DNA from: Gammaproteobacteria bacterium
Lineage (GTDB): Bacteria > Pseudomonadota > Gammaproteobacteria > SZUA-152
Length of the DNA: 44,173 nucleotides
Reading direction: 5' to 3'
Assembly (NCBI GenBank): GCA_011051685.1
Contig: DRKQ01000099.1
Location: forward strand, 1 to 44,173
The notes beneath the pieces were generated by a model. The model worked only from the letters and a program-made list of their open reading frames with translations, had not been told where the DNA came from and did no database searches. Shown here piece by piece: positions 7,218 to 26,999 of the stretch. Every line of letters begins with the position of its first letter. Within the stretch, counting starts at the first letter, position 1. The position numbers were made by a program, and so were the translations under genes.

Positions 7218-7784
7218 ATGTCCACACAACCACCCACACCATCCACATCCAACGACAAGCCTGACCCACAGCGTGGTGATGATGCCTACCTCGTCAAATA
7301 CCTGGTGATGTCCTCCCTGTGCCTGTTCATTGGCACCGTGCACGGGGTATTGCAGGTAATCCGCCCGATCCGTGCCTGGCTGGACAGCATCGGCAGTCCC
7401 TACGGCGGCCCGGGTCATCTCATCGACCCTCTGGCTCACGCCCACATCAATGTGGTGGGCGGTGTTGTGGTGTTTCTCATGGGCGCGTCGTACTATCTGT
7501 TGCCAAGAATGGCGGGGGTCAGGCTGTACTCACAACGCCTGGTGCATCACAGCTTCTGGTGGACCAGCATCGGTATTGCGGGTTTTTACAGCACCCTGAT
7601 GACCTTCGGCATTCTCGAGGGCCGCGCCCTGCTGCAGGATGCCAATCTGGTGGACGGCATTCACCGCTTTTACGGGCCCACCATCGCCACGGTATCGACC
7701 ATCATGGGCATCGGTTTCTGGGTGTATTTTGCCAACATCTTCTTGACCTTCCGCAAGATGCGCCGGGAGAGGCCGGAGAGCTGA
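7218..7784 (+). CDS. Four-helix protein related to heme-copper oxidase subunit I
   Basis: This 188-residue protein has about four membrane helices after a polar N-terminus. Helix II carries 'DPLAHAHINVVGG' (H74, H76) and leads to 'ASYYLLPR', then 'LYSQRLVHHSFWW'. These positions align without gaps, offset by 11, to the four-helix protein at 22432-22968, and through it to helices I-IV of the subunit I at 18940-20346 (H64 is the low-spin heme ligand there). No CuB ligand helices follow, so it cannot be a complete oxidase. RefSeq-like annotators would probably call it cbb3-type oxidase subunit I. The start at 7218 is chosen because the frame upstream runs through the terminator. It could be a heme-binding accessory subunit. 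Function unknown. Confidence 0.7.
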   Translation: MSTQPPTPSTSNDKPDPQRGDDAYLVKYLVMSSLCLFIGTVHGVLQVIRPIRAWLDSIGSPYGGPGHLIDPLAHAHINVVGGVVVFLMGASYYLLPRMAGVRLYSQRLVHHSFWWTSIGIAGFYSTLMTFGILEGRALLQDANLVDGIHRFYGPTIATVSTIMGIGFWVYFANIFLTFRKMRRERPES

Positions 7785-8708: not shown

Positions 8709-9022
8709 TTCTTTGGTTCCAGCTCTGCCGCATTGCGCTGCAGATAATCCAGAATATCGGCCAGCGTGCGATTATTCAGGGATGGCATGCCTTTGGCCTT
8801 CATGCGCATCTGCATGCGCTGTAACACCCCCGGCCAGACACGGGCAGCATGGGCAGTCGGTGCTGGCGCCACATGACAGAACGAACATTTCTCGAGGAAA
8901 AGTTTCGCCGCAGGAGAACCTGCCTCCGGGTATTCAATGTTCTCTGTGGATGTGTCACAGGCCGTTATCATCACCAGCAGACCAAGGCCACTAAGATTTC
9001 GCATCATTTGCACGGCCGTCAT
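8705..9022 (-). CDS. Monoheme cytochrome c lipoprotein
   Basis: About 105 residues. A signal with lipobox 'LVMITAC' is followed by a heme c motif 'CSFCH' near residue 46 and then 'MRMKAKGMPSLNNRTLADIL', where the Met of 'GMPSL' is the likely axial ligand. It is a small class I cytochrome c held at the membrane by lipid, suited to deliver electrons to or from the oxidase complex. ATG at 9022 is preferred because AAGGAG lies about 11 bases upstream; an upstream start at 9049 would add a basic tail. The start lies inside the end of the preceding gene. Confidence 0.82.
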   Translation of the reverse strand: MTAVQMMRNLSGLGLLVMITACDTSTENIEYPEAGSPAAKLFLEKCSFCHVAPAPTAHAARVWPGVLQRMQMRMKAKGMPSLNNRTLADILDYLQRNAAELEPKK

Positions 9023-9467
9023 TTTTTTTCTTCTCCTTGTCGTCCTCATCGGCAGCCTCTTTCCTTGTATCCGTGTCCAGACGACCCGCCACCTTGGAGC
9101 CGTAGAAATTCACCATAAAATACACGAAGGTGCCAAATACCGCGATATACAACAGTGCGGCGCCGAATCCCCAGTTGATCCATTCACGCTCGTAACCCGG
9201 GCGATCCCCCCAGAAGGGAAAACTCAGACCTACTGCCACCAGTACCACTGCGATAATGATCCCGAAAAACCAGCGTGGTACCGGTTGTTGTGATTCGGGT
9301 ATTTTTTCTACCAGTTCCCAGTCCTCCAAGCCCCGCTTGGCACGGCGTTCTTCGTCTGAGGCATAACCAAAATTATCCTCTGGCAACTCACCCCACTGCG
9401 TGTCCTTGATTTCTTCAGGTGGCGTCGGATCGGTATCGTCATTACTGACTTCATTTTCTTTGCTCAT
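8991..9467 (-). CDS. Two-helix membrane protein with FPFWGDRP motif
   Basis: This 158-residue protein has an acidic soluble N-terminus of about 70 residues, helix 1 near 78-100 ending in 'FPFWGDRPGYE', helix 2 near 108-134, and a highly charged Lys/Asp/Glu C-terminal tail. The helix and motif are shared with the 212-residue protein at 17313-17951 ('FPLWGQRP'), so the two look like paralogs. The lead-in 'VPRWFFG' is reminiscent of the CcoP N-terminal 'PLPRWW' region, but no heme motif is present. It sits directly after the CcoG-like gene. Probably a structural subunit of the oxidase complex. Confidence 0.7.
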   Translation of the reverse strand: MSKENEVSNDDTDPTPPEEIKDTQWGELPEDNFGYASDEERRAKRGLEDWELVEKIPESQQPVPRWFFGIIIAVVLVAVGLSFPFWGDRPGYEREWINWGFGAALLYIAVFGTFVYFMVNFYGSKVAGRLDTDTRKEAADEDDKEKKKNDGRANDAKS

Positions 9468-14163: not shown

Positions 14164-15246
14164 CTATTGCTGCGCAGCCTTTTCAGTGTGGCTCTTGTCA
14201 GACGACACAGCACAACGGAAGCCAAAAAAGTCCGAGGCATAATAGGGCATTGAAAAATTACGATGATAGGTGGAGGTGGAAAAGGGATCGCTCTTCCACG
14301 AACCTCCGCGGCGCACCTTATAGACGCCTTCCATAGGCACCAAGTCGGCCACTTTCAGCCCACGATCCTCAGGGGTTAGTGCCTGGACCTTCTTGGGCTG
14401 GAAGGTATCAGCAGGTGCCGTAGAACCTTCGTATGGCCGAAAATCACTGGCTGTCCATTCACTTACATTACCCGCCATGTCAAACACACCATAGGGACTA
14501 ACACCGTTCTTGTAGGTTGTCACAATATTACTGGCACCGGTGTTGTAATAGGTATTGAGTCGTGTGGCATCCATCTTGTTTCCCCAGGGCCAACGCCGGC
14601 CATCGATGCCGCGCGCAGCCTTCTCCCACTCCGCCTCCGTGGGTAGACGTTTGCCTTCCCAGCGACAATAGTCTTCAGCGTCATACCATGTCACCATGGT
14701 TACAGGGTTAAGGATTTTTCCATCAGGGATCTGGCCATTAGCCCAGTCCAATGGCGGACGGTGCTTGGTTTCCATGACAAACTTGGCGTATTCAGCTTGT
14801 GTGACCGGATACTTGTCGATCTGATATTCAGGCAGAAACACGCGATGCTGTGGACGATTGTAATCGTCCGCCCGTGGCGAATCTGTTCCCATTAAAAATT
14901 CACCTGCCGGTATTGTCACTACTGCTTCAAGCTCTTTCCACTGCGCGGGAGTTAGCAGAGAATCCAACTCATTCCAGGCATAAACTTTTTGCGCCTTTGT
15001 CTGAGATTCATGATCACGATGGCGAGCAATATCCTCACCCGCGGCACGCAAATGATCCTTCATATCTGCAAGGTCATAGGTTGCCCGATCCCTCATATCC
15101 GCCATGCGGTTTGAACCCAACTTGACCACATGCAAAACACCAAATACTACGGCTGCGGCAATGCAGGTGATCACTGTGGCCGCCAGATAACGTTCACGCT
15201 TCTGGCGTTCCTCCGCTGTCAATTTGGCATGATACTGGGTCTGCAT
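14164..15246 (-). CDS. Membrane-anchored SUMF1/FGE-fold protein lacking catalytic Cys
   Basis: This 360-residue protein has one N-terminal helix (about residues 20-42), a linker, and a formylglycine-generating-enzyme (SUMF1) domain from about residue 109. The domain has 'PAGEFLMGTDSPRADD', 'YPVTQAEYAKFV', 'VTWYDAEDYCRWEGKRLPTE', 'AEWEKAARG', 'GVFDMAGNVSEWTASDF' and 'RRGGSWKSDPFST'. The cysteine pair that makes true FGE catalytic would follow the RGGSW block; here Ser and His occur instead. It is thus likely a structural or binding version of the fold, as in NirV-type proteins next to nitrite reductases. It is probably exported to the periplasmic face. Confidence 0.85.
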   Translation of the reverse strand: MQTQYHAKLTAEERQKRERYLAATVITCIAAAVVFGVLHVVKLGSNRMADMRDRATYDLADMKDHLRAAGEDIARHRDHESQTKAQKVYAWNELDSLLTPAQWKELEAVVTIPAGEFLMGTDSPRADDYNRPQHRVFLPEYQIDKYPVTQAEYAKFVMETKHRPPLDWANGQIPDGKILNPVTMVTWYDAEDYCRWEGKRLPTEAEWEKAARGIDGRRWPWGNKMDATRLNTYYNTGASNIVTTYKNGVSPYGVFDMAGNVSEWTASDFRPYEGSTAPADTFQPKKVQALTPEDRGLKVADLVPMEGVYKVRRGGSWKSDPFSTSTYHRNFSMPYYASDFFGFRCAVSSDKSHTEKAAQQ

Positions 15247-15249
15247 GAT

Positions 15250-15753
15250 TCAGCTCTTCTGTGCACCGGGCCCAGCCTTATCATCGGCATTTAGTGAACT
15301 CGTTTGCTTGTCCACGGCAGCGTCCCCATCGGATACATGGGCGGCTTTCTTCCAGCCATAAATACGCCTGTTCATGATTTCGCCCAGCACCCCACCGATC
15401 ATCGCAGACTCCATTGCCAGAATGACAAAAAAACCCCACCAGCCCAGCGGCATCAACTCGGCCCCATCGGGAAGCGGGTTATTCGAGTACACCGTTTGGT
15501 AGTAGGCGATGTAGCGCACTATGAGCGGTGGAAAAACCGCGATCCATTTCCCACCCAGTCCATAAATGTAAGAGACGGCTATCCCCACCAGCAAAGGGAG
15601 AATAAATAACTGCAAAAACCAGAAAATATTGAATGTTTTTAAACCCCAAAACAATTCAATACGAACGCCGAGCAGCCAATCCCCAAGAAAATTGAGCAGG
15701 CAGCCCGCAAGTAATGCAATGAAAAGCGTGAACCAGTTAATCCGCACCCTCAT
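15250..15753 (-). CDS. Uncharacterised four-helix membrane protein
   Basis: This 167-residue protein has about four hydrophobic helices (near residues 6-28, 45-66, 72-88 and 104-124) and a polar C-terminal tail of 35 residues. Arginine-containing 'PPLIVRYIAYYQT' lies in the third helix. No family was recognised. Its ATG overlaps the stop of the cytochrome c gene upstream (ATGA-type), and the FGE-fold gene follows after 3 bases. The tight packing places it in the same operon and suggests a complex subunit. Confidence 0.68.
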   Translation of the reverse strand: MRVRINWFTLFIALLAGCLLNFLGDWLLGVRIELFWGLKTFNIFWFLQLFILPLLVGIAVSYIYGLGGKWIAVFPPLIVRYIAYYQTVYSNNPLPDGAELMPLGWWGFFVILAMESAMIGGVLGEIMNRRIYGWKKAAHVSDGDAAVDKQTSSLNADDKAGPGAQKS

Positions 15754-16238
15754 TGTCGATAATCCTTGCCGGTGAGTTTTTCATACGCTGTTTTGCGAGC
15801 CTCATCTAGATACCAATCTTCAACTTTCAAACTGGCAATATACTTGGCAAGCTTGCGGCGATCAGCTTCGGGGATCTTTGCAAAAGAAGGCATACGAAAG
15901 CGCGGCTTGAGGCGAGAAGGAAGTATTGCCTGGGGGTTCTCTGAGGAGAAATAGCTGTACAACCACTCTTCATCACGCATGGAGCCCATGCCATCCAGAG
16001 AAGGCGCAGGAACGGCTTGCATGATGTTTCGCACACCCCATAAGGCATGACAGTCTCGACATTTGTATTTCCGGTATAGAACCGATGCCTCACGTGCCAG
16101 TTCTGGGCTGGCTGTGCTGTAAAATGGAATACCCGGATCTTTTTCCTTGTCCTGGGAGACCATCCAGGCTTTCACAGCCATAACCACCACGACAAAGGCC
16201 GTGATACCTAAAAGAATAGCCTTTTCGCCCTTACGCAT
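15750..16238 (-). CDS. Membrane-anchored monoheme cytochrome c
   Basis: This 162-residue protein has an N-terminal anchor after 'MRKGEK' (helix about residues 8-27), a heme motif 'CRDCH' near residue 60, then 'SLDGMGSMRDEEWLYSYF' and 'PRFRMPSFAKIPEADRRKLA', where the Met of 'RMPSF' is the likely sixth ligand. NorC and CcoO-type small cytochromes share this layout. It is a paralog of the cytochrome at 22972-23622, with the same anchor motif and SLDG(M/V)GS block. Probable role: electron entry to the heme-copper subunit I. Confidence 0.85.
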   Translation of the reverse strand: MRKGEKAILLGITAFVVVVMAVKAWMVSQDKEKDPGIPFYSTASPELAREASVLYRKYKCRDCHALWGVRNIMQAVPAPSLDGMGSMRDEEWLYSYFSSENPQAILPSRLKPRFRMPSFAKIPEADRRKLAKYIASLKVEDWYLDEARKTAYEKLTGKDYRQ

Positions 16239-16516
16239 TATGAACCGCTCTGCTTACGCTCCGCCTCTTTTGCCAGATATTCATCACGCAGCTCTTCTTG
16301 ATGTTTGTTGACCTTCATTGCCTTTTCGAATTCCTCAGGCGTCATCTTGTCTTTGTCGTTTTCATCGAAAACGACATATTTGATATCCTCGTCAAACTGA
16401 TCATTGTGCGCTGCCCAACGTACCCAGTAAATTGCGGTTAACACAATTGCGGCGCCGGCAATCAGCCAGAGATAAATCGTCCAGCCATCTTCAAATGAGT
16501 TAAAAAAATCCGCCAT
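16238..16516 (-). CDS. Small single-helix membrane protein with charged tail
   Basis: About 92 residues: one helix near residues 14-34 ('YLWLIAGAAIVLTAIYWVRW') and an acidic and basic cytoplasmic tail ('DENDKDKMTPEEFEKAMKV'). The second ATG (16516) is preferred over the one at 16522, because AGGAG lies 8 bases before it but only about 2 before the first. It overlaps the cytochrome gene by one base. CcoQ-like in layout, but with no recognisable sequence match. Function unknown. Confidence 0.65.
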   Translation of the reverse strand: MADFFNSFEDGWTIYLWLIAGAAIVLTAIYWVRWAAHNDQFDEDIKYVVFDENDKDKMTPEEFEKAMKVNKHQEELRDEYLAKEAERKQSGS

Positions 16517-16527
16517 CTTCATTTCTC

Positions 16528-17312: not shown

Positions 17313-17951
17313 CTAGTGACCGTGGTGTGTGGGTTCCCAATCATAGGGAGGCAGCCGTTTCACCGCTATCACCACGCTTACGCAGAATACGACGATGAAA
17401 AAGATATCGATGGTATATCCCTTATCCCACCATGGCTGTACGCGCTCACGACGGATCTTTCCGGTGTTCGGATCGGTAATCCAATTACCTTCAAAGTTCG
17501 CAAGCACCAGCTTGTTACCAAGAACCGTATATTCGCGGAGATCGGCGTTCTGACGCTTCAGTTCGATTATCGCATCCTTGATCAGCCGTAAGTCATCCAT
17601 CTCCACAGGATGGCGTTCCTGTAGCGGCGCCCACTTGGAGCCTTCTGACTTCACCTTGTTGACGATATATTCCATCGCCTCTTTGTCACTCTTCCCCTGC
17701 ACTGCCGGAGAATCCATCAGCGCGATGTATTCTTCGTAGATTGCTGCATTGGGACGCTGCCCCCAGAGCGGAAAGGTAACAAGAAACGCCGTGATAATCG
17801 TCAAAATCAAAAGGCCAATGACAGGCACGGGCAGACGGTTGTTATCCTCCGTGATGCCACCGAGACTCTCTCCTTCCCAAACCTTTTTAGCCGCTTCATT
17901 CTGATCATCACTACTCAGGGTGTAAAGCGGGTTATCAAATTTCCAAGCCAT
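17313..17951 (-). CDS. Two-helix membrane subunit resembling heme-less CcoP N-terminus
   Basis: This 212-residue protein has 'SLGGITEDNNRLPVPVIGLL' (about residues 29-48), reminiscent of the CcoP start 'DGI.E.NNPLP.WW', and helix 1 ending in 'FPLWGQRP'. A soluble domain of about 110 residues follows, then a second helix near residues 178-198. No CxxCH is present. The FP.WG.RP element is shared with the 158-residue protein at 8991. Located directly after the CcoO-like gene, it occupies the place of CcoP in the cco order, and I infer a third core subunit without heme. Confidence 0.7.
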   Translation of the reverse strand: MAWKFDNPLYTLSSDDQNEAAKKVWEGESLGGITEDNNRLPVPVIGLLILTIITAFLVTFPLWGQRPNAAIYEEYIALMDSPAVQGKSDKEAMEYIVNKVKSEGSKWAPLQERHPVEMDDLRLIKDAIIELKRQNADLREYTVLGNKLVLANFEGNWITDPNTGKIRRERVQPWWDKGYTIDIFFIVVFCVSVVIAVKRLPPYDWEPTHHGH

Positions 17952-17962
17952 GTCTACTCCCC

Positions 17963-18913
17963 TTATTTCAAGTTCAGAACAAAGTCGATCAATGCGCGGG
18001 CTTCACTATCAGCCGCAGGTACCGGCACCTCGGGCGGATACACGGACTCACCATTGGTATAAGCCGTGTATTCGGCACGCCAACCGTCATAGTCGATAGT
18101 ATTGCCGTTGGCATCCTTTTCACCCCACAGATAATCGTAGCGTGGCATGATGGAATGCGACTGCACCAGACGTGGATTGAAGAAGTGCATCATCATCCAT
18201 TCACGCGATGAGTTGCGTGAACCCACGTGCGTCAAGTCAGGCGCCTTCCGGTCTGAACCAAATGCCGTGGGTGACTCGCCATTGAAGTCACCGAGCATAG
18301 GCGGAGCACCAAAGTACTGCCAATCCTGCGTTTGCTCTGGCAGCAGGGTGTGGCACCACCAGCAGCCCTCACGCACGAACATGATTTTACCTTTACCAAC
18401 GAGCAGACGCTGAGAATCGGCAGCTTTCGCCAAGGTAGCCTCCGGGGTCCAGCCACGAGTTGCCGTGGCATTTTCGATGAACGGAACCAACTCGCCATTC
18501 TCGACCTCTTCACGCACGATAAAGACAGCACCCTGCGCCTCTGAGGCCTCGTTGATGCGCCCTTTGGACTCGCTTGCAGCAGCAGGCAGTTTACCTAGAA
18601 TCCGCGGATGGCGAATGCCATTGGGAAACGGCACGTCCTTCTCGTAAACAAAGGCACGTGTCGACTCAATGGCTGCCCCTGTTTTCGGATCCTGGGTAAT
18701 TTGTACCGTGATTGGTTTCGCCCAGCCTTGCAGGAAGGGATCTTCATAACTGAAGCCCCCAACCCGGCCGAAGGACAGCTGACGATCCATTGCAATGGAT
18801 GTCGCGGATACATCCTGAATATCCACTGCCGGCATGTACAAGGTAATGAACATTGATGTACCGAACGCCAAACCGAACATTCGGGCACCAATTTTATACT
18901 CTCTAAAAGCCAT
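17963..18913 (-). CDS. CcoO-like monoheme cytochrome c subunit II
   Basis: This 316-residue protein has an N-terminal anchor (about residues 12-30) and a C-terminal heme domain. The heme motif 'REGCWWCHTLLPEQ' near residue 182, then 'DLTHVGSRNSSREW', 'HFFNPRLVQSHSIMPRYDYL' match CcoO blocks ('REGC..CH', 'PDLARVGGRYSD..H..HL.NPR', 'SKMPAYPWL'). The Met in 'SIMPRY' is the likely axial ligand. About 110 residues between anchor and heme domain have no CcoO counterpart. The gene starts 26 bases after subunit I. It would receive electrons from soluble cytochromes and pass them to the low-spin heme of subunit I. Confidence 0.88.
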   Translation of the reverse strand: MAFREYKIGARMFGLAFGTSMFITLYMPAVDIQDVSATSIAMDRQLSFGRVGGFSYEDPFLQGWAKPITVQITQDPKTGAAIESTRAFVYEKDVPFPNGIRHPRILGKLPAAASESKGRINEASEAQGAVFIVREEVENGELVPFIENATATRGWTPEATLAKAADSQRLLVGKGKIMFVREGCWWCHTLLPEQTQDWQYFGAPPMLGDFNGESPTAFGSDRKAPDLTHVGSRNSSREWMMMHFFNPRLVQSHSIMPRYDYLWGEKDANGNTIDYDGWRAEYTAYTNGESVYPPEVPVPAADSEARALIDFVLNLK

Positions 18914-18939: not shown

Positions 18940-20346
18940 TTAACGTTCGTAAGCAAGTTCGTGAGGCAGACGTCCAGCAGGAATTGCGGTTCCCACCCGA
19001 GCAGTCTTGTACATATTGTACAGCCACACACAGTTACCGAGGAACACCATGGTGCCGCCCACCCAACGGGCAATCATGTAGGGATGCTCGGCAATCACGA
19101 CGTCGATGTAAGGCACTTCGTAAATTTTACCTGCGCCCTGGATCAGACCAGCGATGGTCATGGATACCCAGTACGTGGTAAAGCCTACCAGCAACATCCA
19201 GAAGTGGAAGTTAGCCAGGCCCAGTGAATACAGTTTACGGCGCAGCAGTGTCTGCAGGCCATAGTACACGGCAGCCGCTTCCAGGAAGGTGGAGAAACCC
19301 AGCAACGCCAAGTGGGCATGGGCCACGATCCAGCCGGTTCCATGGATGTACCAGTTAATGGCACGGGTCTGCTGGAAACCACCCTGCATGTTTAGCGGGA
19401 TCGCCATCAACACACCGGTGATGGTGAACTTGATTTCGATGTTTTCCACGAACATGCGCCACTTGCCGGTCATGGTGAGCAGCAGGTTGGACACAAAGGC
19501 GATGGCCGGCACCAGGATCAACACACCTTCAACAGATGCGAAGGACTTCAGCCATTCAGGCAGGGGCGCGGACATCAGGTGATGAGCGGCCGGGGTGGAG
19601 TAGAACACCACCACAGACCAGAAATGCAAGTGACCGATGCGGTGCGAGTACAGCGGATTACCCGTTACCTTGGGCACCACATAGTAGGAGATGGCCGCTG
19701 CAACCGGCGTGATCCACAAGCCCAATACGTTATGGGCGAACCACCAGGTCAGATAGGCTTCAGTCAAACCAGTCAACTGGAAGAACTCGGGTGAATTACC
19801 CACCGAGAAAACGATGATAACCATGAATGTGGCTGCACCGAAGAACCAGTTAGTGGTGTAGATACCCTGTGTACGGCGCGTCTTGATAGTCATAAAGACG
19901 TTGACACAAAGCGGAGTCAACACGCCCAGGATCACAACCACATCGATAAAGAAGGGCATGTCGGAATACTCACGACCAGAACTCACTCCCAACCACAGCA
20001 GGAACAGCCCAAGTGACAGGCCGATATTCCAGATAAAGCAGTTCCAGACACCCAGCTTCTCAGACCACAACTTGGTATTACCCAAAGCCGGCGTGATGTA
20101 CATCATCGCCATGGCAAAGGCCATGGAGATCCAGCCGAGGATTACCGCCAGTACGTGCACCTGGCGCATATGTCCAAATGACAGGATCTCACTACCGGTG
20201 ACAAAATCCGGAAATGCGAGCTTGGCGGCATTGAAGGAACCCAAACCGGTTCCGATTACAAACCAAATGATAGACGAATAACCGAAGTAAACCGCGGCTG
20301 ATCCAGCCGGGATATCTTCCGCTTTCGCAAATAGGTATTTAAACAT
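18940..20346 (-). CDS. Heme-copper oxidoreductase subunit I, cbb3-related
   Basis: This 468-residue protein has 12 predicted helices. Ligands are present: low-spin heme His H64 ('RQVHVLAVILGW') and H345, high-spin heme H343 ('VAHAHLALLG'), and CuB H205 ('WWFAHN'), H255 and H256 ('TPAAHHL'). Y249 lies 44 residues after H205 and 6 before H255, exactly as the cross-linked tyrosine of CcoN. Where CcoN has Glu in 'STFEGPM', this protein has Q321 ('LNMQGGF'). The neighbours (CcoO-like, CcoG-like) confirm the cbb3 side of the superfamily. NorB is unlikely because the tyrosine is kept, but one of the newer NO reductase families or an unusual O2 reductase remains possible. The order (subunit I, then CcoO-like) is that of ccoNO. 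Confidence 0.9.
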   Translation of the reverse strand: MFKYLFAKAEDIPAGSAAVYFGYSSIIWFVIGTGLGSFNAAKLAFPDFVTGSEILSFGHMRQVHVLAVILGWISMAFAMAMMYITPALGNTKLWSEKLGVWNCFIWNIGLSLGLFLLWLGVSSGREYSDMPFFIDVVVILGVLTPLCVNVFMTIKTRRTQGIYTTNWFFGAATFMVIIVFSVGNSPEFFQLTGLTEAYLTWWFAHNVLGLWITPVAAAISYYVVPKVTGNPLYSHRIGHLHFWSVVVFYSTPAAHHLMSAPLPEWLKSFASVEGVLILVPAIAFVSNLLLTMTGKWRMFVENIEIKFTITGVLMAIPLNMQGGFQQTRAINWYIHGTGWIVAHAHLALLGFSTFLEAAAVYYGLQTLLRRKLYSLGLANFHFWMLLVGFTTYWVSMTIAGLIQGAGKIYEVPYIDVVIAEHPYMIARWVGGTMVFLGNCVWLYNMYKTARVGTAIPAGRLPHELAYER

Positions 20347-20536: not shown

Positions 20537-20794
20537 TCAGGCTCTGGACTCGATTTCCAGGTGGCGTCCAACAGCAACCTTGAGGATTGCAAAGAAGGCA
20601 AGACCAAAGACGATCATTGACCAGTCGATGAATCCGGTGAACGTCGCCGGGTCGTAAGCCATGCTACCCCAACCACCCCAGTCGTCGAACTGGCCGCGGC
20701 CGAGAAAACACATGAGCGTAGCGCCAAACACACTACCGTTGCCCATTCCGGTCAACATTCCCCCAACGAGAGAAAGCATTAGCGGATTTTTCAT
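20537..20794 (-). CDS. Two-helix membrane protein, 85 aa
   Basis: The 85-residue protein has helices near residues 5-30 and 55-76, a Gly/Trp-rich loop ('GRGQFDDWGGWGSMAYD') and a charged end 'GRHLEIESRA'. A textbook AGGAGGTG site lies 5 to 6 bases upstream of the ATG, which indicates high expression. It is the first gene of the subunit I operon, about 60 bases before the 30-residue microprotein. No family recognised. Confidence 0.72.
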   Translation of the reverse strand: MKNPLMLSLVGGMLTGMGNGSVFGATLMCFLGRGQFDDWGGWGSMAYDPATFTGFIDWSMIVFGLAFFAILKVAVGRHLEIESRA

Positions 20795-21465: not shown

Positions 21466-21918
21466 TCAAGCAAACACTTTTAATGACGACGTTGCCTGGC
21501 CAAATCCCGCCTCATTTGCAAACTGTCCCTTATGGAACACATATTGGCGCTTGGCGCCCATCATATCCATCCCGGTAAGGCCGAAGGACTTGCCGGCGTG
21601 ATCCGCGAAAAAACGCACATTCTTGATCAATTCGACGCTTTCACCATTACGCATCCTCAAAACGACCCGTTGTTTGGAAACCTCCAGCGATACCGGCGAT
21701 TGAGGCAACAATAGCAACCTTCCCAATATGCGGTGAATGCCCTGGTAGAAAAAGAAACAAGCCAGAAAAAACAACAAGTACGCCAGCCCCTGATTGCCGT
21801 CATACCAGAACATGAAGGCGCCAGTGCCGAGACCCGCCACCGTGGGTACATACATCAGGGCATCCCAAGTGACGCCCTTGCGATCCTGCACCAATTCAAA
21901 TACCGCTGATTTTGCCAC
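21466..21918 (-). CDS. Uncharacterised two-helix membrane protein
   Basis: This 150-residue protein has two helices (about residues 22-38 and 45-66) in a hairpin, followed by a soluble beta-rich domain ('VSLEVSKQRVVLRMRNGESV', 'AKRQYVFHKGQFANEAGF') that resembles bacterial PH-like/YcxB-type modules in overall plan. It lies 6 bases after the redoxin gene and is the last gene of the operon that starts near 23622. Role unknown. Confidence 0.65.
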   Translation of the reverse strand: MAKSAVFELVQDRKGVTWDALMYVPTVAGLGTGAFMFWYDGNQGLAYLLFFLACFFFYQGIHRILGRLLLLPQSPVSLEVSKQRVVLRMRNGESVELIKNVRFFADHAGKSFGLTGMDMMGAKRQYVFHKGQFANEAGFGQATSSLKVFA

Positions 21919-21924
21919 GCCGCA

Positions 21925-22428
21925 TCAACCTGTTTTGCGCTCGTTGAGCAACCCGGCCACCGCTGCATCCACCTCACGATAGAGCATGCGCCCGGCCCGC
22001 TTGAGGCGAATCTTGTGCTTGCCGTCGATGATGTAGGTCCAGGGGTCGCCGATTACCTTGAAGGCGTTGAAGGCTTCGGGATTTTGATACTGATCCATGT
22101 GCAGGAACAGCACATCCTGATTCTCATACTTATCCATGACGCCCTTGAGCATCTGTAAATGCTTGTCACATTGCGTGCAATGCCCAGGCGTGGCGAAGGC
22201 CAGCACGATCACCTTGCCAGAGTCCAGGGCATCATCCAGGGAATACTGGTACATGCGCTTATCGGGATAGCGATAACTGGTAATCCTGCTTAAATCTCCG
22301 CCCACATCCTCGAGGGTCTTGGTGCGTAAACTTGGCACCTCCATCCCCACCTTGTAGCTGCCATCGTCAAAGATACAGCCCGACAGGGACACCACCAGCA
22401 ATGTCACTACTATCCGCCACATAATCAC
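21925..22428 (-). CDS. Thioredoxin-fold lipoprotein (SCO/TlpA-like)
   Basis: This 167-residue protein has a lipoprotein signal ending 'VSLSGC' (Cys near residue 18) and a redoxin domain with 'KVIVLAFATPGHCTQCDKHL', a CxxC motif (CTQC), followed by 'DVLFLHMDQYQNPEAFNAFK' and the cis-Pro-like 'GDPWTYIIDGKHKI'. SCO and TlpA proteins deliver copper or reduce cysteines and heme sites during oxidase assembly. The dense cytochrome cluster makes a role in copper or heme c insertion likely. It follows the four-helix oxidase-like gene by 3 bases. Confidence 0.82.
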   Translation of the reverse strand: MIMWRIVVTLLVVSLSGCIFDDGSYKVGMEVPSLRTKTLEDVGGDLSRITSYRYPDKRMYQYSLDDALDSGKVIVLAFATPGHCTQCDKHLQMLKGVMDKYENQDVLFLHMDQYQNPEAFNAFKVIGDPWTYIIDGKHKIRLKRAGRMLYREVDAAVAGLLNERKTG

Positions 22429-22431
22429 ACC

Positions 22432-22968
22432 TCAGTCCCGGTCCCGAGCCTGTCGCCACCCGGCGCAGGTGCGAAACAGGTTGTATGCCCAGATAAAATT
22501 CGCCAGTAACACCAGGGTGCCAAATATACCCATGGTGGCAAGAATAGGCTTCACCACGGCCTCAACCTGCTCCGGCGTACCGGTCTCACTGGTCAGCCCA
22601 CCCAGTATCCCTGCCGTGGTGAAAAACACCACCATGCCAATGAGACCAAAGTTATGTGTCCAGAAATGCCATTTCACCAACTTGAGACTGTAGATAGGCT
22701 TTTTCACCAAGCGTGGAATAATGTAGTAGACCGCCCCAAAAATAGCCATTTCCACCCACCCCAACAGATTCACATGGGTGTGAGCGCGGACAATCAGATT
22801 GCCATGCAGGCGATGATCCACGAAATGACGAAATTCGGAAATACCCCCCATCAGCGCCCCCCAGGAAAAACCGATGATACTGTAGATGATACACGCGTAA
22901 ATAAACCACAGGGTGTAACGAGTATATTCCGTATCATGCACCCACGGCTCTTGCTGACTGCTGTTCAC
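22432..22968 (-). CDS. Four-helix protein matching oxidase subunit I helices I-IV
   Basis: This 178-residue protein has helices near 20-42, 58-84, 104-124 and 141-164. Helix II has 'VRAHTHVNLLGWVEMA' (H63, H65). Compared with the cluster's subunit I, H63/G70/W71/M74/P85/S94/K96/L97/W100/N106/G108/L109 match H64/G71/W72/M75/P86/S95/K97/L98/W101/N107/G109/L110 with no gap, so it is a free-standing homolog of helices I-IV, including the low-spin heme ligand. It lacks CuB and high-spin heme helices. It follows the cytochrome c gene by 3 bases, as NorB follows NorC. It may bind heme as an oligomer or act as an assembly subunit. Confidence 0.78.
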   Translation of the reverse strand: MNSSQQEPWVHDTEYTRYTLWFIYACIIYSIIGFSWGALMGGISEFRHFVDHRLHGNLIVRAHTHVNLLGWVEMAIFGAVYYIIPRLVKKPIYSLKLVKWHFWTHNFGLIGMVVFFTTAGILGGLTSETGTPEQVEAVVKPILATMGIFGTLVLLANFIWAYNLFRTCAGWRQARDRD

Positions 22969-22971
22969 TGA

Positions 22972-23622
22972 TTACTCCTGATGAGCCTTGTTGTTGGCCT
23001 GCTCGCTGGTTTTTTTGGAGGCAGGTGACTGCGTCCTGCCCTGTGAAGCACCTTCCGGCGCATCCTTGGTGCGTATATCCTGGTAGCGCTCCTTCCACTC
23101 CTTCGGCGCCCAGGCACCTACCATGTTATCAATAAAATCCGAGCGTCCTTCCGGCGGCATGGCTGCCGAAGATGAACCCTGCTCGGATTTCAATTCAGAG
23201 ATAAACACCGCAATGGCGTGACGGTCCTTTTCCGGCAACTGCGCCACATAGGCCGCCTCCTTGGGTGGAGCACCGTGATCGAAGGTCTTCGCCCCGTATG
23301 TTTTCTCTGGGTTGGCCAAAAAGTCGACCAACCACTCCAGACTGCGAACTGAGCCTACGCCATCCAGTGACAAACCCATATTGGTGCCATTTCGCAAGGC
23401 GCGATGACATGCTGTACAGCCGGATTTGCGGAAAAGTGCGGAGCCCACCTGTCCCTCCTCGGAAAAATCATAATGAGTCTTGTTCGCAAACATGGGTTCG
23501 GGACGCGAGGTGCGATACACCTCCAGGGCCGCATAGGCAACCACCGCAAGACCAATAAACACGGCAACGATTCCGAAAAGAATCTTTTCGCCGCTTTTTA
23601 ATATCTGCTTCTGATTTGACAT
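22972..23622 (-). CDS. Membrane-anchored monoheme cytochrome c, no clear Met ligand
   Basis: About 216 residues from the ATG at 23622, which has GGAAG upstream; the longer frame to 23697 has no better start. The N-terminus 'QILKSGEKILFGIVAVF' leads into one helix, then a heme motif 'CTACH' near residue 71 and 'SLDGVGSVRSLEWLVDFL'. Where its paralog at 15750 has 'RMPSF' the aligned residues are 'EAAYV', so the usual Met ligand is absent; a His lies nearby in 'FDHGAPP'. The C-terminus is a long polar tail rich in Ser, Lys and Gln. First gene of the 23622-21466 operon. Confidence 0.82.
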   Translation of the reverse strand: MSNQKQILKSGEKILFGIVAVFIGLAVVAYAALEVYRTSRPEPMFANKTHYDFSEEGQVGSALFRKSGCTACHRALRNGTNMGLSLDGVGSVRSLEWLVDFLANPEKTYGAKTFDHGAPPKEAAYVAQLPEKDRHAIAVFISELKSEQGSSSAAMPPEGRSDFIDNMVGAWAPKEWKERYQDIRTKDAPEGASQGRTQSPASKKTSEQANNKAHQE

Positions 23623-23722
23623 ATGACGTCTTCCAGCCCTTCCGGGAGGCGTGCTGCGATACAGGGATTGACGGAATAACTCGGCAGGCAAAACCACAGA
23701 CCGAAACCATCTTGGCCAGAGG

Positions 23723-23831: not shown

Positions 23832-24566
23832 TCATTCATGAGGGTAGTCATCCGGCACCCGGGAATTACCCATAGTGGTTCGCGGAGCAGACGTGAGATA
23901 GGTAGCCACATTGTGGATATCGTCATCGGTCATGTTTTTGGCCACGGCACGCATCTGACCCATGGGATCATTGGCACGGCTGCCATCACGCCATTTTTTC
24001 AGCTGATTGATCAGGTACACGTATTTCTGTCCACCGATCATGGGATACACCGGTGCGGCGCCTCGTCCGTTGAAACTATGACAGGAATAACAGGAAGGAA
24101 TACCGCGATCCGTGGCGCCATACATCACAATGGACTTGCCCAGGTGACGCACACCCACAGGATTTCCCAGCTCCTTCACCTGTTTCATATCGGAAGACAC
24201 CAATTCCTTGCTCAGGCTGGCGGCATAAGCCGCAACATCCCGACGATCCTCCGGGCTCAGCCCCTTGGCGTTGGTATTCATGATAAACATGGTGGTATCC
24301 ATGCGCTTGTCAGCGGCAAAATCTTCCAGCTGCTTTACCAGAAACACGTAGCCCTGTCCCGCCAAGCGGGGCGTGCCCATGGCGTCGTCACCCATGCCAT
24401 CCTGACCATGACAACTGTTACAGGCAGGTACATCGCCCTTGCCGTTCATGAAGATGTTTTTGCCGTTTTCGATATTACCGTGAATGCCGTGGCTCCCGCC
24501 CGAGGCAAACGCCGCAGATGCGGCGAACAGTGTCGCGACTGCTGATACTTTTGTTATGAGATGCAT
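23832..24566 (-). CDS. Diheme cytochrome c4-like protein
   Basis: About 244 residues with a cleavable signal peptide ('LFAASAAFASGG'). Two class I heme domains follow: 'CNSCHGQDGMGDDAMGTPRL' and 'CYSCHSFNGRGAAPVYPMIG', each ending in a 'GQ.Y(V)L..QL' block ('GQGYVFLVKQLEDF', 'GQKYVYLINQLKKW') that is characteristic of cytochrome c4. The ATG at 24566 is favoured because a GGAGGGAG site lies 7 bases before it. c4 proteins ferry electrons from the bc1 complex to terminal oxidases, including cbb3, so it is a natural donor to the reductase encoded next to it. Own terminator downstream. Confidence 0.92.
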   Translation of the reverse strand: MHLITKVSAVATLFAASAAFASGGSHGIHGNIENGKNIFMNGKGDVPACNSCHGQDGMGDDAMGTPRLAGQGYVFLVKQLEDFAADKRMDTTMFIMNTNAKGLSPEDRRDVAAYAASLSKELVSSDMKQVKELGNPVGVRHLGKSIVMYGATDRGIPSCYSCHSFNGRGAAPVYPMIGGQKYVYLINQLKKWRDGSRANDPMGQMRAVAKNMTDDDIHNVATYLTSAPRTTMGNSRVPDDYPHE

Positions 24567-24783
24567 AAGAACACTCCCTCCCAACCTAATTTGTTAATTC
24601 GTAATAAGCAATATGATTCTTGTTTTGCCCGGCTTGCGCCTTTGTTCTATCCCCAACCTGCTCTGGCCTGCTAATCGCTGGGCTTGCCTACTACCCACTC
24701 AGCCGTTTCCTGCAAATCCCGTCATCACATACCCCTGTTCACAAACAAACTGCGGCCAGGGCCACGCAAACGATTGGAATAAA

Positions 24784-24876: not shown

Positions 24877-25229
24877 GTTACTCCCCTCCCAAATGACTAC
24901 ACAAAAACAGAGTTTCGGAATTCCGGCCATGTATATAACACGGTTTCCCGCAGCCGGACAAGCAAACGGCGGCCAGTATATATCACGTTTCCCACAACTT
25001 ACCAGCGCCAGGACACCCAAATTTAACCAAGCATTTTATTAGGTTATGGCGCCGGTGCCGCAACCTAAACCGGCAAACAGTCACTCATTTTCCCTGCGCC
25101 GCCCCCGTTCCGGGTTTGACCTCCATTCATTGCCACAACATACTTGAGGCCAAAGCAGCCACCACCGTGGGTCGCCCTCAAGAGCCCACGGTCTGCCAAC
25201 ACCCTGAAAATAATCGAGTTAGTCATACT
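24877..25229. promoter_or_regulatory. Divergent gene-free interval with a 26-base direct repeat
   Basis: No gene is supported. Two similar blocks occur in direct orientation: GGCCATGTATATAACACGG plus TTTCCCGCA at 24925-24952 and GGCCAGTATATATCACG plus TTTCCCACA at 24971-24996, about 46 bases apart. Each holds a TATATA core and a TTTCCC end. They lie upstream of the minus-strand microprotein and the plus-strand channel gene and could be tandem regulator sites or paired promoters. The remainder shows no clear signal. Confidence 0.5.
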
Positions 25230-26207
25230 ATGGTACAACGAGGATACCGGGCTCTGGTCCTGTGGATTGCATGGGCTGCAGCCGCCATCGTCATCTATCT
25301 GGGGCTCTACCAGGACACAGAAGTCTTCGCCTTTGTGCAGAACGACCCCAGCCGCATCACCTGGGCAATCATCTCGCTGTTCGCCCTGGGGGTGATTACC
25401 AGCTTCGTGCTCACCATCCTGCTCACCTTCGAATCCATCAAGGTGGACGAACTGGAAGCCATCGCCAAGCGCGACGGCTGGCTGGGCATCGAACAGGCCA
25501 ATAAAAAGGGCTGTGTGGCAGAGTTTTTCCGCTCCCTGCGCACCATCGTGGAAAACAACGGGGAACTGAACATCGAGGCCCTGGTGGACGTGGAATTCTC
25601 CATTTATCAGCGCTTCGCCCACGCCCTGGAGATCATCGGCAACCTGCTGATCACCCTGGGTCTCATCGGCACCGTGGCTGGCCTGACCCTGACGCTGACC
25701 GGCCTCACTTCCTCCCTGGACGCCCTGGGCCAGGATCAGGCCCAGCTGCTCGCCGGTCTACGCGGCGCCATGAGCGGCATGGGCACGGCATTTTACACCA
25801 CCCTGCTGGGTGCGGTACTGGGGGGCGTGTTGTTGCGCATCTTCGCCCACATCGATGAAAACGGCGTGGAAAGCCTGGAAGACAGCCTCACCCGCACCTG
25901 CCTGGTGTATTGCTCCTCGGATCTGAAGCCCTCCCTGGAACGGGATCTGCACCTCATCAACGCCGAGATCGACACCATGCGCCGCAATATCGAGGGACTG
26001 CACACCCTGCTGGTCAACACTCGTGAAGCCATGCGTGAATTCGCCACCGAGGTAAAACACCCTGGCCAGGACATGGAAATCGACAAACTGCGGGAGATGG
26101 TGCGCCTGCGCCAAGCCCATATCAAAACCCTGGCGCTGGAGATCAAGCTGCGTCAGGCCGAACGCGGCATCATCGGCTACCTGTTCGGGGCCAAGAACAA
26201 AAAATAG
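25230..26207 (+). CDS. MotA/TolQ/ExbB-family proton-channel protein
   Basis: About 325 residues from ATG 25230; a longer frame starts at 25116 but the extra residues are polar and unlike the family. Helices lie near 7-27, 41-66, 129-152 and 175-197. The third has 'LITLGLIGTVAGLTLTLTGL' and the fourth 'GMGTAFYTTLLGAVLGGVLL', the paired ExbB/TolQ-type signatures that form the ion path. A cytoplasmic tail of about 115 residues after helix 4 looks helical and may form a coiled coil ('LREMVRLRQAHIKTLALEIK'). It precedes a MotB-like/VWA gene by 9 bases. It is not a flagellar or Ton protein by context. Confidence 0.85.
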   Translation: MVQRGYRALVLWIAWAAAAIVIYLGLYQDTEVFAFVQNDPSRITWAIISLFALGVITSFVLTILLTFESIKVDELEAIAKRDGWLGIEQANKKGCVAEFFRSLRTIVENNGELNIEALVDVEFSIYQRFAHALEIIGNLLITLGLIGTVAGLTLTLTGLTSSLDALGQDQAQLLAGLRGAMSGMGTAFYTTLLGAVLGGVLLRIFAHIDENGVESLEDSLTRTCLVYCSSDLKPSLERDLHLINAEIDTMRRNIEGLHTLLVNTREAMREFATEVKHPGQDMEIDKLREMVRLRQAHIKTLALEIKLRQAERGIIGYLFGAKNKK

Positions 26208-26216
26208 CCGTCAACC

Positions 26217-26999
26217 ATGCGCAGAAAACGCCGCTCAAATCCACCCAATATCTACGAGATGTTCTCCGACATCGCCCTGCTGATGCTCGCCACCTTCATT
26301 TTCCTGCTGGTCACCATCCTCATCACCGCGCGCATGGCCGAGCAATACCAGGCGCCCCGGCTCAAGGACGCCATCAAACACCTGCAGGCTGACCTCGACC
26401 GGGCCCAGGCCGAGCGCGAACGCCTGATGGCCAGCATGGACGCCATGGCCAGCCTCACCACCAACGAACAAATGGAAAAGGCACTGGCCGCTTCCGGCAT
26501 GGCCCAGGGGAAAAATCGCAAGGATTTCGATGTCTTCGTCAAAGGCCTGCGTGACCTGCCAGGCGACAGCCTGCACCTGCTCATCGATGCCACCGGCTCC
26601 ATGCACGGAGTGAGCGAATTCCTGGTACCCATACTGCGCATCATCATCATTCGCTCTGGCAAAAAACTCGATGCCCTCACCTGGTTCTCCGACGGCAAGG
26701 CTGACACCTACCGCGGCACCATGGGTGAAATCTTCGACCGGCTCATCGAAGGCGCCCCCTTCGTCGGTGCCAACGAGACCATCGGTCACGCCTTCAAATA
26801 CGCTGCCGAACATGCACCGGCCCCCGGCGCCTACCTGCTCATCGGTGACGAGCCCCCCGCAGACCGCATCCATTACTTCAACATTCCCAGCCCGGTATTC
26901 ACCCTGCCCCTGGGACGAGACAATCCCGACACCACCTGGCACTACAAAAAACTGGCGGAAGAAACCGGTGGCAAAATGCTGCACCTGGAATTGAAATAG
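26217..26999 (+). CDS. MotB/ExbD-like stalk fused to von Willebrand A domain
   Basis: This 260-residue protein has one N-terminal helix, 'MFSDIALLMLATFIFLLVTI' (about residues 15-34), with the Asp that MotB and ExbD use to carry protons. A coiled coil (about 45-85) follows, then a VWA domain from about 115. Its MIDAS residues are visible: 'LIDATGSM' (DxTxS form), 'GANETIGHAF' for the Thr, and 'LIGDEPP' for the Asp. The topology places the VWA domain in the periplasm. It is encoded just after the MotA-like gene, so the two should form a stator complex that drives or gates the VWA domain. I know no named system of this build. Confidence 0.82.
   Translation: MRRKRRSNPPNIYEMFSDIALLMLATFIFLLVTILITARMAEQYQAPRLKDAIKHLQADLDRAQAERERLMASMDAMASLTTNEQMEKALAASGMAQGKNRKDFDVFVKGLRDLPGDSLHLLIDATGSMHGVSEFLVPILRIIIIRSGKKLDALTWFSDGKADTYRGTMGEIFDRLIEGAPFVGANETIGHAFKYAAEHAPAPGAYLLIGDEPPADRIHYFNIPSPVFTLPLGRDNPDTTWHYKKLAEETGGKMLHLELK

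Follow-up and report, generated by a model that had tools for sequence, protein, structure and literature searches.

A free-standing four-helix repeat of the heme-copper oxidase fold encoded with a cbb3-like oxidase, probably of the distal type

Subunit I of the heme-copper oxidases has long been known to possess pseudo-threefold structural symmetry. Related systems are described in the accessible parts of three papers, namely a highly expressed "complex IV-2" together with Cyc1 in Ca. Tenderia electrophaga, in a region syntenic with Mariprofundus ferrooxydans (PMC5371394), "proximal" and "distal" forms of the cbb3 oxidase in Zetaproteobacteria (PMC7029218), and a cyc1 homolog inside the cbb3 gene cluster of Sideroxydans ES-1 (PMC8788666). 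The window, by which is meant the whole stretch of 44,173 nucleotides that was analysed, carries a Cyc1-type cytochrome c4 and a cbb3-like oxidase, as does the complex IV-2 locus so far as the accessible text describes it. The locus matches those of Mariprofundus PV-1 (L057) and of a Ca. Tenderia contig (L038), and is very likely of the same type as the Cyc1-associated cbb3 locus in the accessible parts of PMC5371394 and the distal cbb3 of PMC7029218; the catalytic subunit is likely to be the "distal" form of the zetaproteobacterial literature. A free-standing four-helix protein, here called HCO4, is encoded in the same locus. A free-standing oxidase repeat is not mentioned in the accessible parts of PMC5371394, PMC7029218 and PMC8788666, and no description of one was found in the open literature, a body of work outside which most subscription journals lie. 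The genes concerned are as follows.

7218-7784, plus strand: HCOb (name used here), 188 aa, a divergent free-standing repeat with an invariant H74-x-H76-x-N78
14164-15246, minus strand: membrane-anchored formylglycine-generating-enzyme-like (FGE-like) protein (3.2e-54), at the end of the oxidase cluster
15750-16238, minus strand: cytcB, the other monoheme cytochrome c with a membrane anchor, sharing about 30% identity with cytcA
16238-16522, minus strand: small one-helix protein with a weak match to FixS (cbb3 maturation; 0.0087, below the cut-off)
17313-17951, minus strand: CcoP-like membrane protein without CxxCH (FixP_N, 0.004)
17963-18913, minus strand: CcoO-like monoheme subunit (FixO, 1.1e-17)
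18940-20346, minus strand: CcoN-like catalytic subunit I, 468 aa, built of three four-helix repeats, each about 140 residues long
20537-20794, minus strand: 85-aa two-helix membrane protein, conserved upstream of CcoN
21466-21918, minus strand: 150-aa membrane protein with no assigned function, next in the module
21925-22428, minus strand: thioredoxin-like CxxC lipoprotein, following HCO4 after 3 nt
22432-22968, minus strand: HCO4, 178 aa, a free-standing four-helix repeat of the heme-copper oxidase fold with an invariant H63-x-H65-x-N67
22972-23697, minus strand: cytcA, a monoheme cytochrome c with a membrane anchor, 3 nt upstream of HCO4
23832-24584, minus strand: diheme cytochrome c4-like protein, named as Cyc1 type by comparison with PMC5371394 and PMC7029218

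The HCO4 reading frame is real and runs from 22968 to 22432 on the minus strand, with a GTG start and 178 codons. An earlier note on this DNA had claimed that residues 50-110 match the CcoN-like protein without gaps at an offset of 1, and this holds, with 19 identities in 61 positions (L54, H63, L69, G70, W71, M74, A75, A79, Y82, I83, P85, L87, S94, K96, L97, W100, N106, G108 and L109) where only twelve had been counted; 2000 shuffles of the segment, each taken at the best of all offsets, gave at most 16. The same segment matches CcoN residues 330-390 (helices IX-XII) better, with 21 identities, ungapped, at offset 280, and matches more weakly, again ungapped, at offset 140 (from residue 190, helices V-VIII). 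When HCO4 and CcoN were compared in BLOSUM62 windows, peaks were obtained at offsets 280, 1 and 140 with scores of 105, 75 and 55 against a shuffled maximum of 46, and canonical cbb3 CcoN gave the same pattern at offsets 290, 150 and 5. A profile of 60 HCO4 orthologs matched the thirds of CcoN with E values of 3e-15 (helices IX-XII), 2.3e-7 (I-IV) and 9e-7 (V-VIII) and respective scores of 95, 49 and 45, column-shuffled controls reaching no more than 25; for helices I-IV the score was 48.9, against at most 21.0 for column-shuffled controls and 14.3 for the reversed profile. Profile comparison of the CcoN thirds with each other yielded only 0.028, 0.035 and 1e-4. A profile search of the PDB with HCO4 matched all three repeats of the 3mk7 CcoN, and NorB at helices I-IV, and Pfam COX1 (PF00115) matches HCO4 at 9.7e-18 (64.7 bits, cut-off 34.8), the family being matched by 60 of 60 orthologs. 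On this sequence evidence the homology of HCO4 to subunit I can be regarded as certain, and, since both the ungapped and the profile matches extend to all three thirds of CcoN, HCO4 is to be seen as a single free-standing repeat of a three-repeat fold.

In sequence terms HCO4 is closest to helices IX-XII, which are preferred by Pfam, NCBIfam, the PDB sequence search and the profile comparison alike. As the closest match, helices I-IV must consequently be abandoned, as must the description "a quarter of subunit I", four helices of 12 being one third. The comparison with the parts of subunit I that had been proposed as a check gave a significant match to every third, and neither cytochrome b561 nor NarI, which had been named as families that might fit better, is among the Pfam hits at E<=1. 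Pfam returned only COX1 and a sub-threshold match to DUF2871 (PF11070), a short family of unknown function; 35 of the 60 orthologs match it at E<=0.001, and in HCO4 the match spans most of the length of the family. The DUF2871 score of HCO4 is 23.8 bits with a gathering cut-off of 27.4, seven matches in relatives are likewise below it, and DUF2871 was rejected as the family of HCO4 on account of this score; in a search of 349 Pseudomonadota genomes, which was run without a responding positive control, no DUF2871 member over the threshold was found. Two unannotated high-coverage matches, considered as free-standing copies on plasmids, proved to be full CcoN. NorB and qNOR resemble HCO4 in Foldseek and profile matches (4xyd, 3o0r), best at helices I-IV, but are full 12-helix enzymes whose similarity to it is much weaker than that of CcoN.

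The threefold repetition is also apparent within CcoN, which when compared with itself in BLOSUM62 windows shows a peak at lag 140 (score 56, shuffled maximum 39). The protein keeps H64, H205, Y249, H255/H256 and H343/H345, of which, going by established cbb3 structures, H64 and H345 ligate heme b, H343 heme b3, and H205 and H255/H256 CuB; the Tyr sits six residues before the His-His pair as in canonical cbb3, a spacing that fits a working oxygen reductase. Helix II reads VHVH in some distal CcoN proteins (L021 and L181), so that an HxH pair occurs there in repeat 1 too and not only in repeat 3, and a 461-aa COX1-like protein (L180, G000:C98:4349-5563) is seemingly without the His-His CuB pair.

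HCO4 is encoded in addition to this complete CcoN (cbb3 subunit I; PF00115; PDB 3mk7, 6xkw, 9g6b), with which it has in common the fold, the three ungapped repeat matches, the H-x-H motif of helix X and a P-x-Y-S-x-x-L-x-x-x-H-F-W motif. It differs in having four helices and not 12, being at 178 aa too short for a catalytic subunit I, and in the absence of the helix-VII His-His pair and the active-site Tyr. In ungapped register the CcoN residues opposite H63 are H64 of helix II and H343, the first His of helix X, and those opposite H65 are H205 of helix VI and H345, the second His of helix X; the heme ligand positions of helices II and X are thus present. At offset 140 the two CuB histidines of CcoN (255/256) are matched by F115/F116 and its active-site Tyr (249) by L109, so that HCO4 lacks a CuB site, as had been claimed earlier. 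All 60 orthologs have H63, H65 and N67 without exception, and so do the divergent forms reading GHGHLN (GHGH). The loop at 86-99 and the C-terminus carry positive charges, a sign that these ends are cytoplasmic, which would place H63 and H65 on the periplasmic side at the end of helix 2.

In the oxidase two repeats ligate the low-spin heme, position 63 being supplied by repeat 1 and position 65 by repeat 3. Because the two positions are drawn from different repeats, the one or two b hemes expected for the His pair of HCO4 would probably lie across an interface, and, as HCO4 and HCOb each own both positions, hemes could be held in this way in an HCO4-HCO4 homodimer, between HCO4 and HCOb, or between HCO4 and CcoN, all of which are candidate interfaces. 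The reading towards which we lean is that HCO4 is an obligate membrane partner of the adjacent distal-type cbb3 oxidase, most likely a b-type cytochrome subunit. It might be argued that HCO4 keeps the fold merely as a scaffold and is a structural subunit devoid of heme; its heme binding is a prediction, and small subunits without heme do occur in solved cbb3 structures. However, both ligand-position His are invariant across Gammaproteobacteria and Zetaproteobacteria, and in HCOb as well, and such a role is considered very improbable.

Structure prediction points in the same direction as the sequence comparisons. An AlphaFold2 model of HCO4 made from a 60-row alignment (pLDDT 83, pTM 0.76) has four long helices, with confidence lowest around residues 45-65, beside the His pair. 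Foldseek searches with the model returned cbb3 CcoN chains first (prob 1.00, E 0.007 to 0.04), followed by NorB and qNOR, and VIA-align superposed it on 6xkw_n (CcoN) with a Z of 11.0 and an rmsd of 2.6 over 153 residues. Unrelated four-helix bundles, designed helical bundles and FAT domains reach an equal VIA-align Z (about 11), and because generic helical bundles score as well as CcoN this match is to be taken as supportive; it is the sequence evidence that is decisive.

HCOb lies about 15 kb from HCO4 on the opposite strand and has the HxHxN motif in common with it, invariant in HCOb also. In BLOSUM62 windows HCOb gives peaks against CcoN at offsets 269, 129 and -10, with scores of 78, 48 and 28, the last within the shuffle range. 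In a tree built from all the repeats, repeats 1, 2 and 3 each form a clade that takes in both canonical and distal CcoN; HCOb joins repeat 3 of the distal form (92/77, not starred), and HCO4 is placed at the central node with a near-zero stem. Trees of helices IX-XII put HCO4 near the C-family oxidases with weak support (80/76), its place not being resolved in another sampling, and AU tests rejected no placement of HCO4 (p 0.17-0.47), those derived from repeat 3 and those older than the triplication included. The "ancestral-like unit" of the heme-copper fold suggested in the earlier note is in keeping with the central node, but is not singled out by the AU tests. A stronger form of the idea, in which HCO4 (with HCOb) would be the preserved single four-helix unit from which subunit I arose by triplication, and its oligomers would still form a heme core like that of a primitive oxidase, we regard as improbable. 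At the other extreme HCO4 could be a functionless fragment of the neighbouring CcoN left by a recent duplication, for which the ungapped identity of about 31-34% between the two might be cited. The distal CcoN form a clade that excludes HCO4, and intact, conserved HCO4 genes are present in dozens of genomes from two classes; a recent origin from the adjacent gene is ruled out by these observations and the fragment is scarcely credible.

An important consideration in establishing the role of HCO4 is how closely its distribution follows that of the oxidase. Among 274 gammaproteobacterial genomes HCO4 was found in 24 (the genome of the window included), HCOb in 25 and this type of CcoN in 23, and the three sets agree except for G088, G203 and G047. 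HCO4 without CcoN was met with in G088 and G203, both of them fragmented assemblies. In G047 (L181:494-2715) the distal CcoN is divergent, at 60% identity, and is accompanied by several cytochromes c and, immediately upstream, by an HCOb-type repeat; an HCO4 ortholog was not found in this genome, which possibly represents a simpler form of the system with one free-standing repeat. In 20 genomes picked for having HCO4, belonging to families whose assignment to the Zetaproteobacteria was made from named loci, CcoN was present in 20 and HCOb in 19, in one of these 19 as fragments only. HCO4 thus co-occurs with distal CcoN, and, since the genes are kept together in genomes even when unlinked, as in G033 and G181, where the HCO4 module, CcoN and HCOb are on different contigs and all three are retained, a functional tie between HCO4 and the oxidase is indicated. 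The co-occurrence is in part the inheritance of one gene cluster and fits a subunit and an assembly factor equally well. The "extra heme or assembly subunit" proposed earlier is supported to the extent of a tight link to one type of oxidase, a link that does not discriminate between the two roles.

HCO4 and its neighbours form a compact block, the genes from cytcA through that of the 150-aa protein being spaced by 3 to 6 nt in the window. In 80 loci from Gamma- and Zetaproteobacteria a cytochrome c gene is upstream of HCO4 in 80 and the thioredoxin-like gene downstream in 80, with the 150-aa protein in 79, and the full order cytc4-cytcA-HCO4-Trx-150aa occurs in all 20 loci of a separate sample of Gammaproteobacteria genomes. 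The c4 gene adjoins the cytcA-HCO4 module in gammaproteobacterial loci and is farther away or beyond reach in many zetaproteobacterial ones. The oxidase genes are usually 2-6 kb downstream of the module, and the genome of the window contains a second copy of the locus (C213). The genes at 25116-26999 (plus strand), for a MotA/TolQ/ExbB-like protein and a following membrane protein, are divergent beside the Cyc1 gene and are seen in only some gammaproteobacterial loci. FixP_N-like membrane proteins without any CxxCH are encoded at both 17313-17951 and 8991-9467 (minus strand), and cytcA and cytcB, at the two ends of the oxidase cluster, are paralogous; it is possible that CcoP has lost its hemes and been replaced by the two anchored cytochromes c. 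The integrity of the block bears on a further proposal, that HCO4 and cytcA, possibly with HCOb, make up a separate b-c module outside the oxidase, transferring electrons between periplasmic cytochrome c and quinone in uphill flow. The order cytc4-cytcA-HCO4-Trx-150aa does stay intact where CcoN is on another contig (G033, G181) and where CcoN is on the other side of the block (L042, L204). However, HCO4 was met with in the absence of this oxidase only in the two fragmented assemblies, and according to the accessible parts of PMC7029218 and PMC5371394 such organisms carry other quinone-linked complexes, bc1 and ACIII, so that a separate module is thought unlikely to be the answer.

The main rival to a cytochrome subunit is an assembly factor, in which HCO4, acting together with the thioredoxin-like lipoprotein, would mimic a repeat and bind nascent CcoN, or would deliver heme b or copper, while remaining outside the mature enzyme. 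The CxxC lipoprotein encoded directly downstream in 80/80 loci speaks for such a role, as do the FGE-like and weakly FixS-like proteins with which the cluster ends on its far side, and the three genes show that the cluster includes assembly functions; the FGE-like protein comes last in most of the loci that extend so far. Conservation argues the other way. It is quoted here from the 20 loci of the 274-genome gammaproteobacterial sample because the set of 80 was picked by similarity to HCO4, which inflates its identity. Median identities to the window were 80% for CcoN, 72% for HCO4, 60% for the thioredoxin-like protein, 59% for CcoO, 58% for Cyc1, 54% for cytcA and 51% for the 150-aa protein, so that HCO4 comes close to the catalytic subunit in conservation and the presumed assembly genes fall well short of it. 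In addition, HCO4 is encoded right behind a membrane cytochrome c, and to our knowledge none of the established cbb3 assembly proteins CcoA, CcoG, CcoH, CcoI and CcoS is an oxidase repeat. An assembly factor is accordingly rated as a genuine contender, though not a probable one. If HCO4 is a cytochrome subunit, it would be a putative heme-b-bearing partner of the cytochrome c with the membrane anchor, located in the oxidase or next to it; the diheme Cyc1-like carrier would feed the anchored cytochrome c, and the heme of HCO4 would pass electrons between that cytochrome and the oxidase or the quinone pool.

The path of electrons from Cyc1 to oxygen in iron- and electrode-oxidising bacteria is still a sketch, and with HCO4 and HCOb two conserved but uncharacterised proteins are now linked to the oxidase of these organisms. 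For the family as a whole, the ungapped alignment of one free-standing protein with each of the three repeats of subunit I, and profile matches to them that are better than those they give with each other, make the origin of the fold by triplication testable at the level of sequence.
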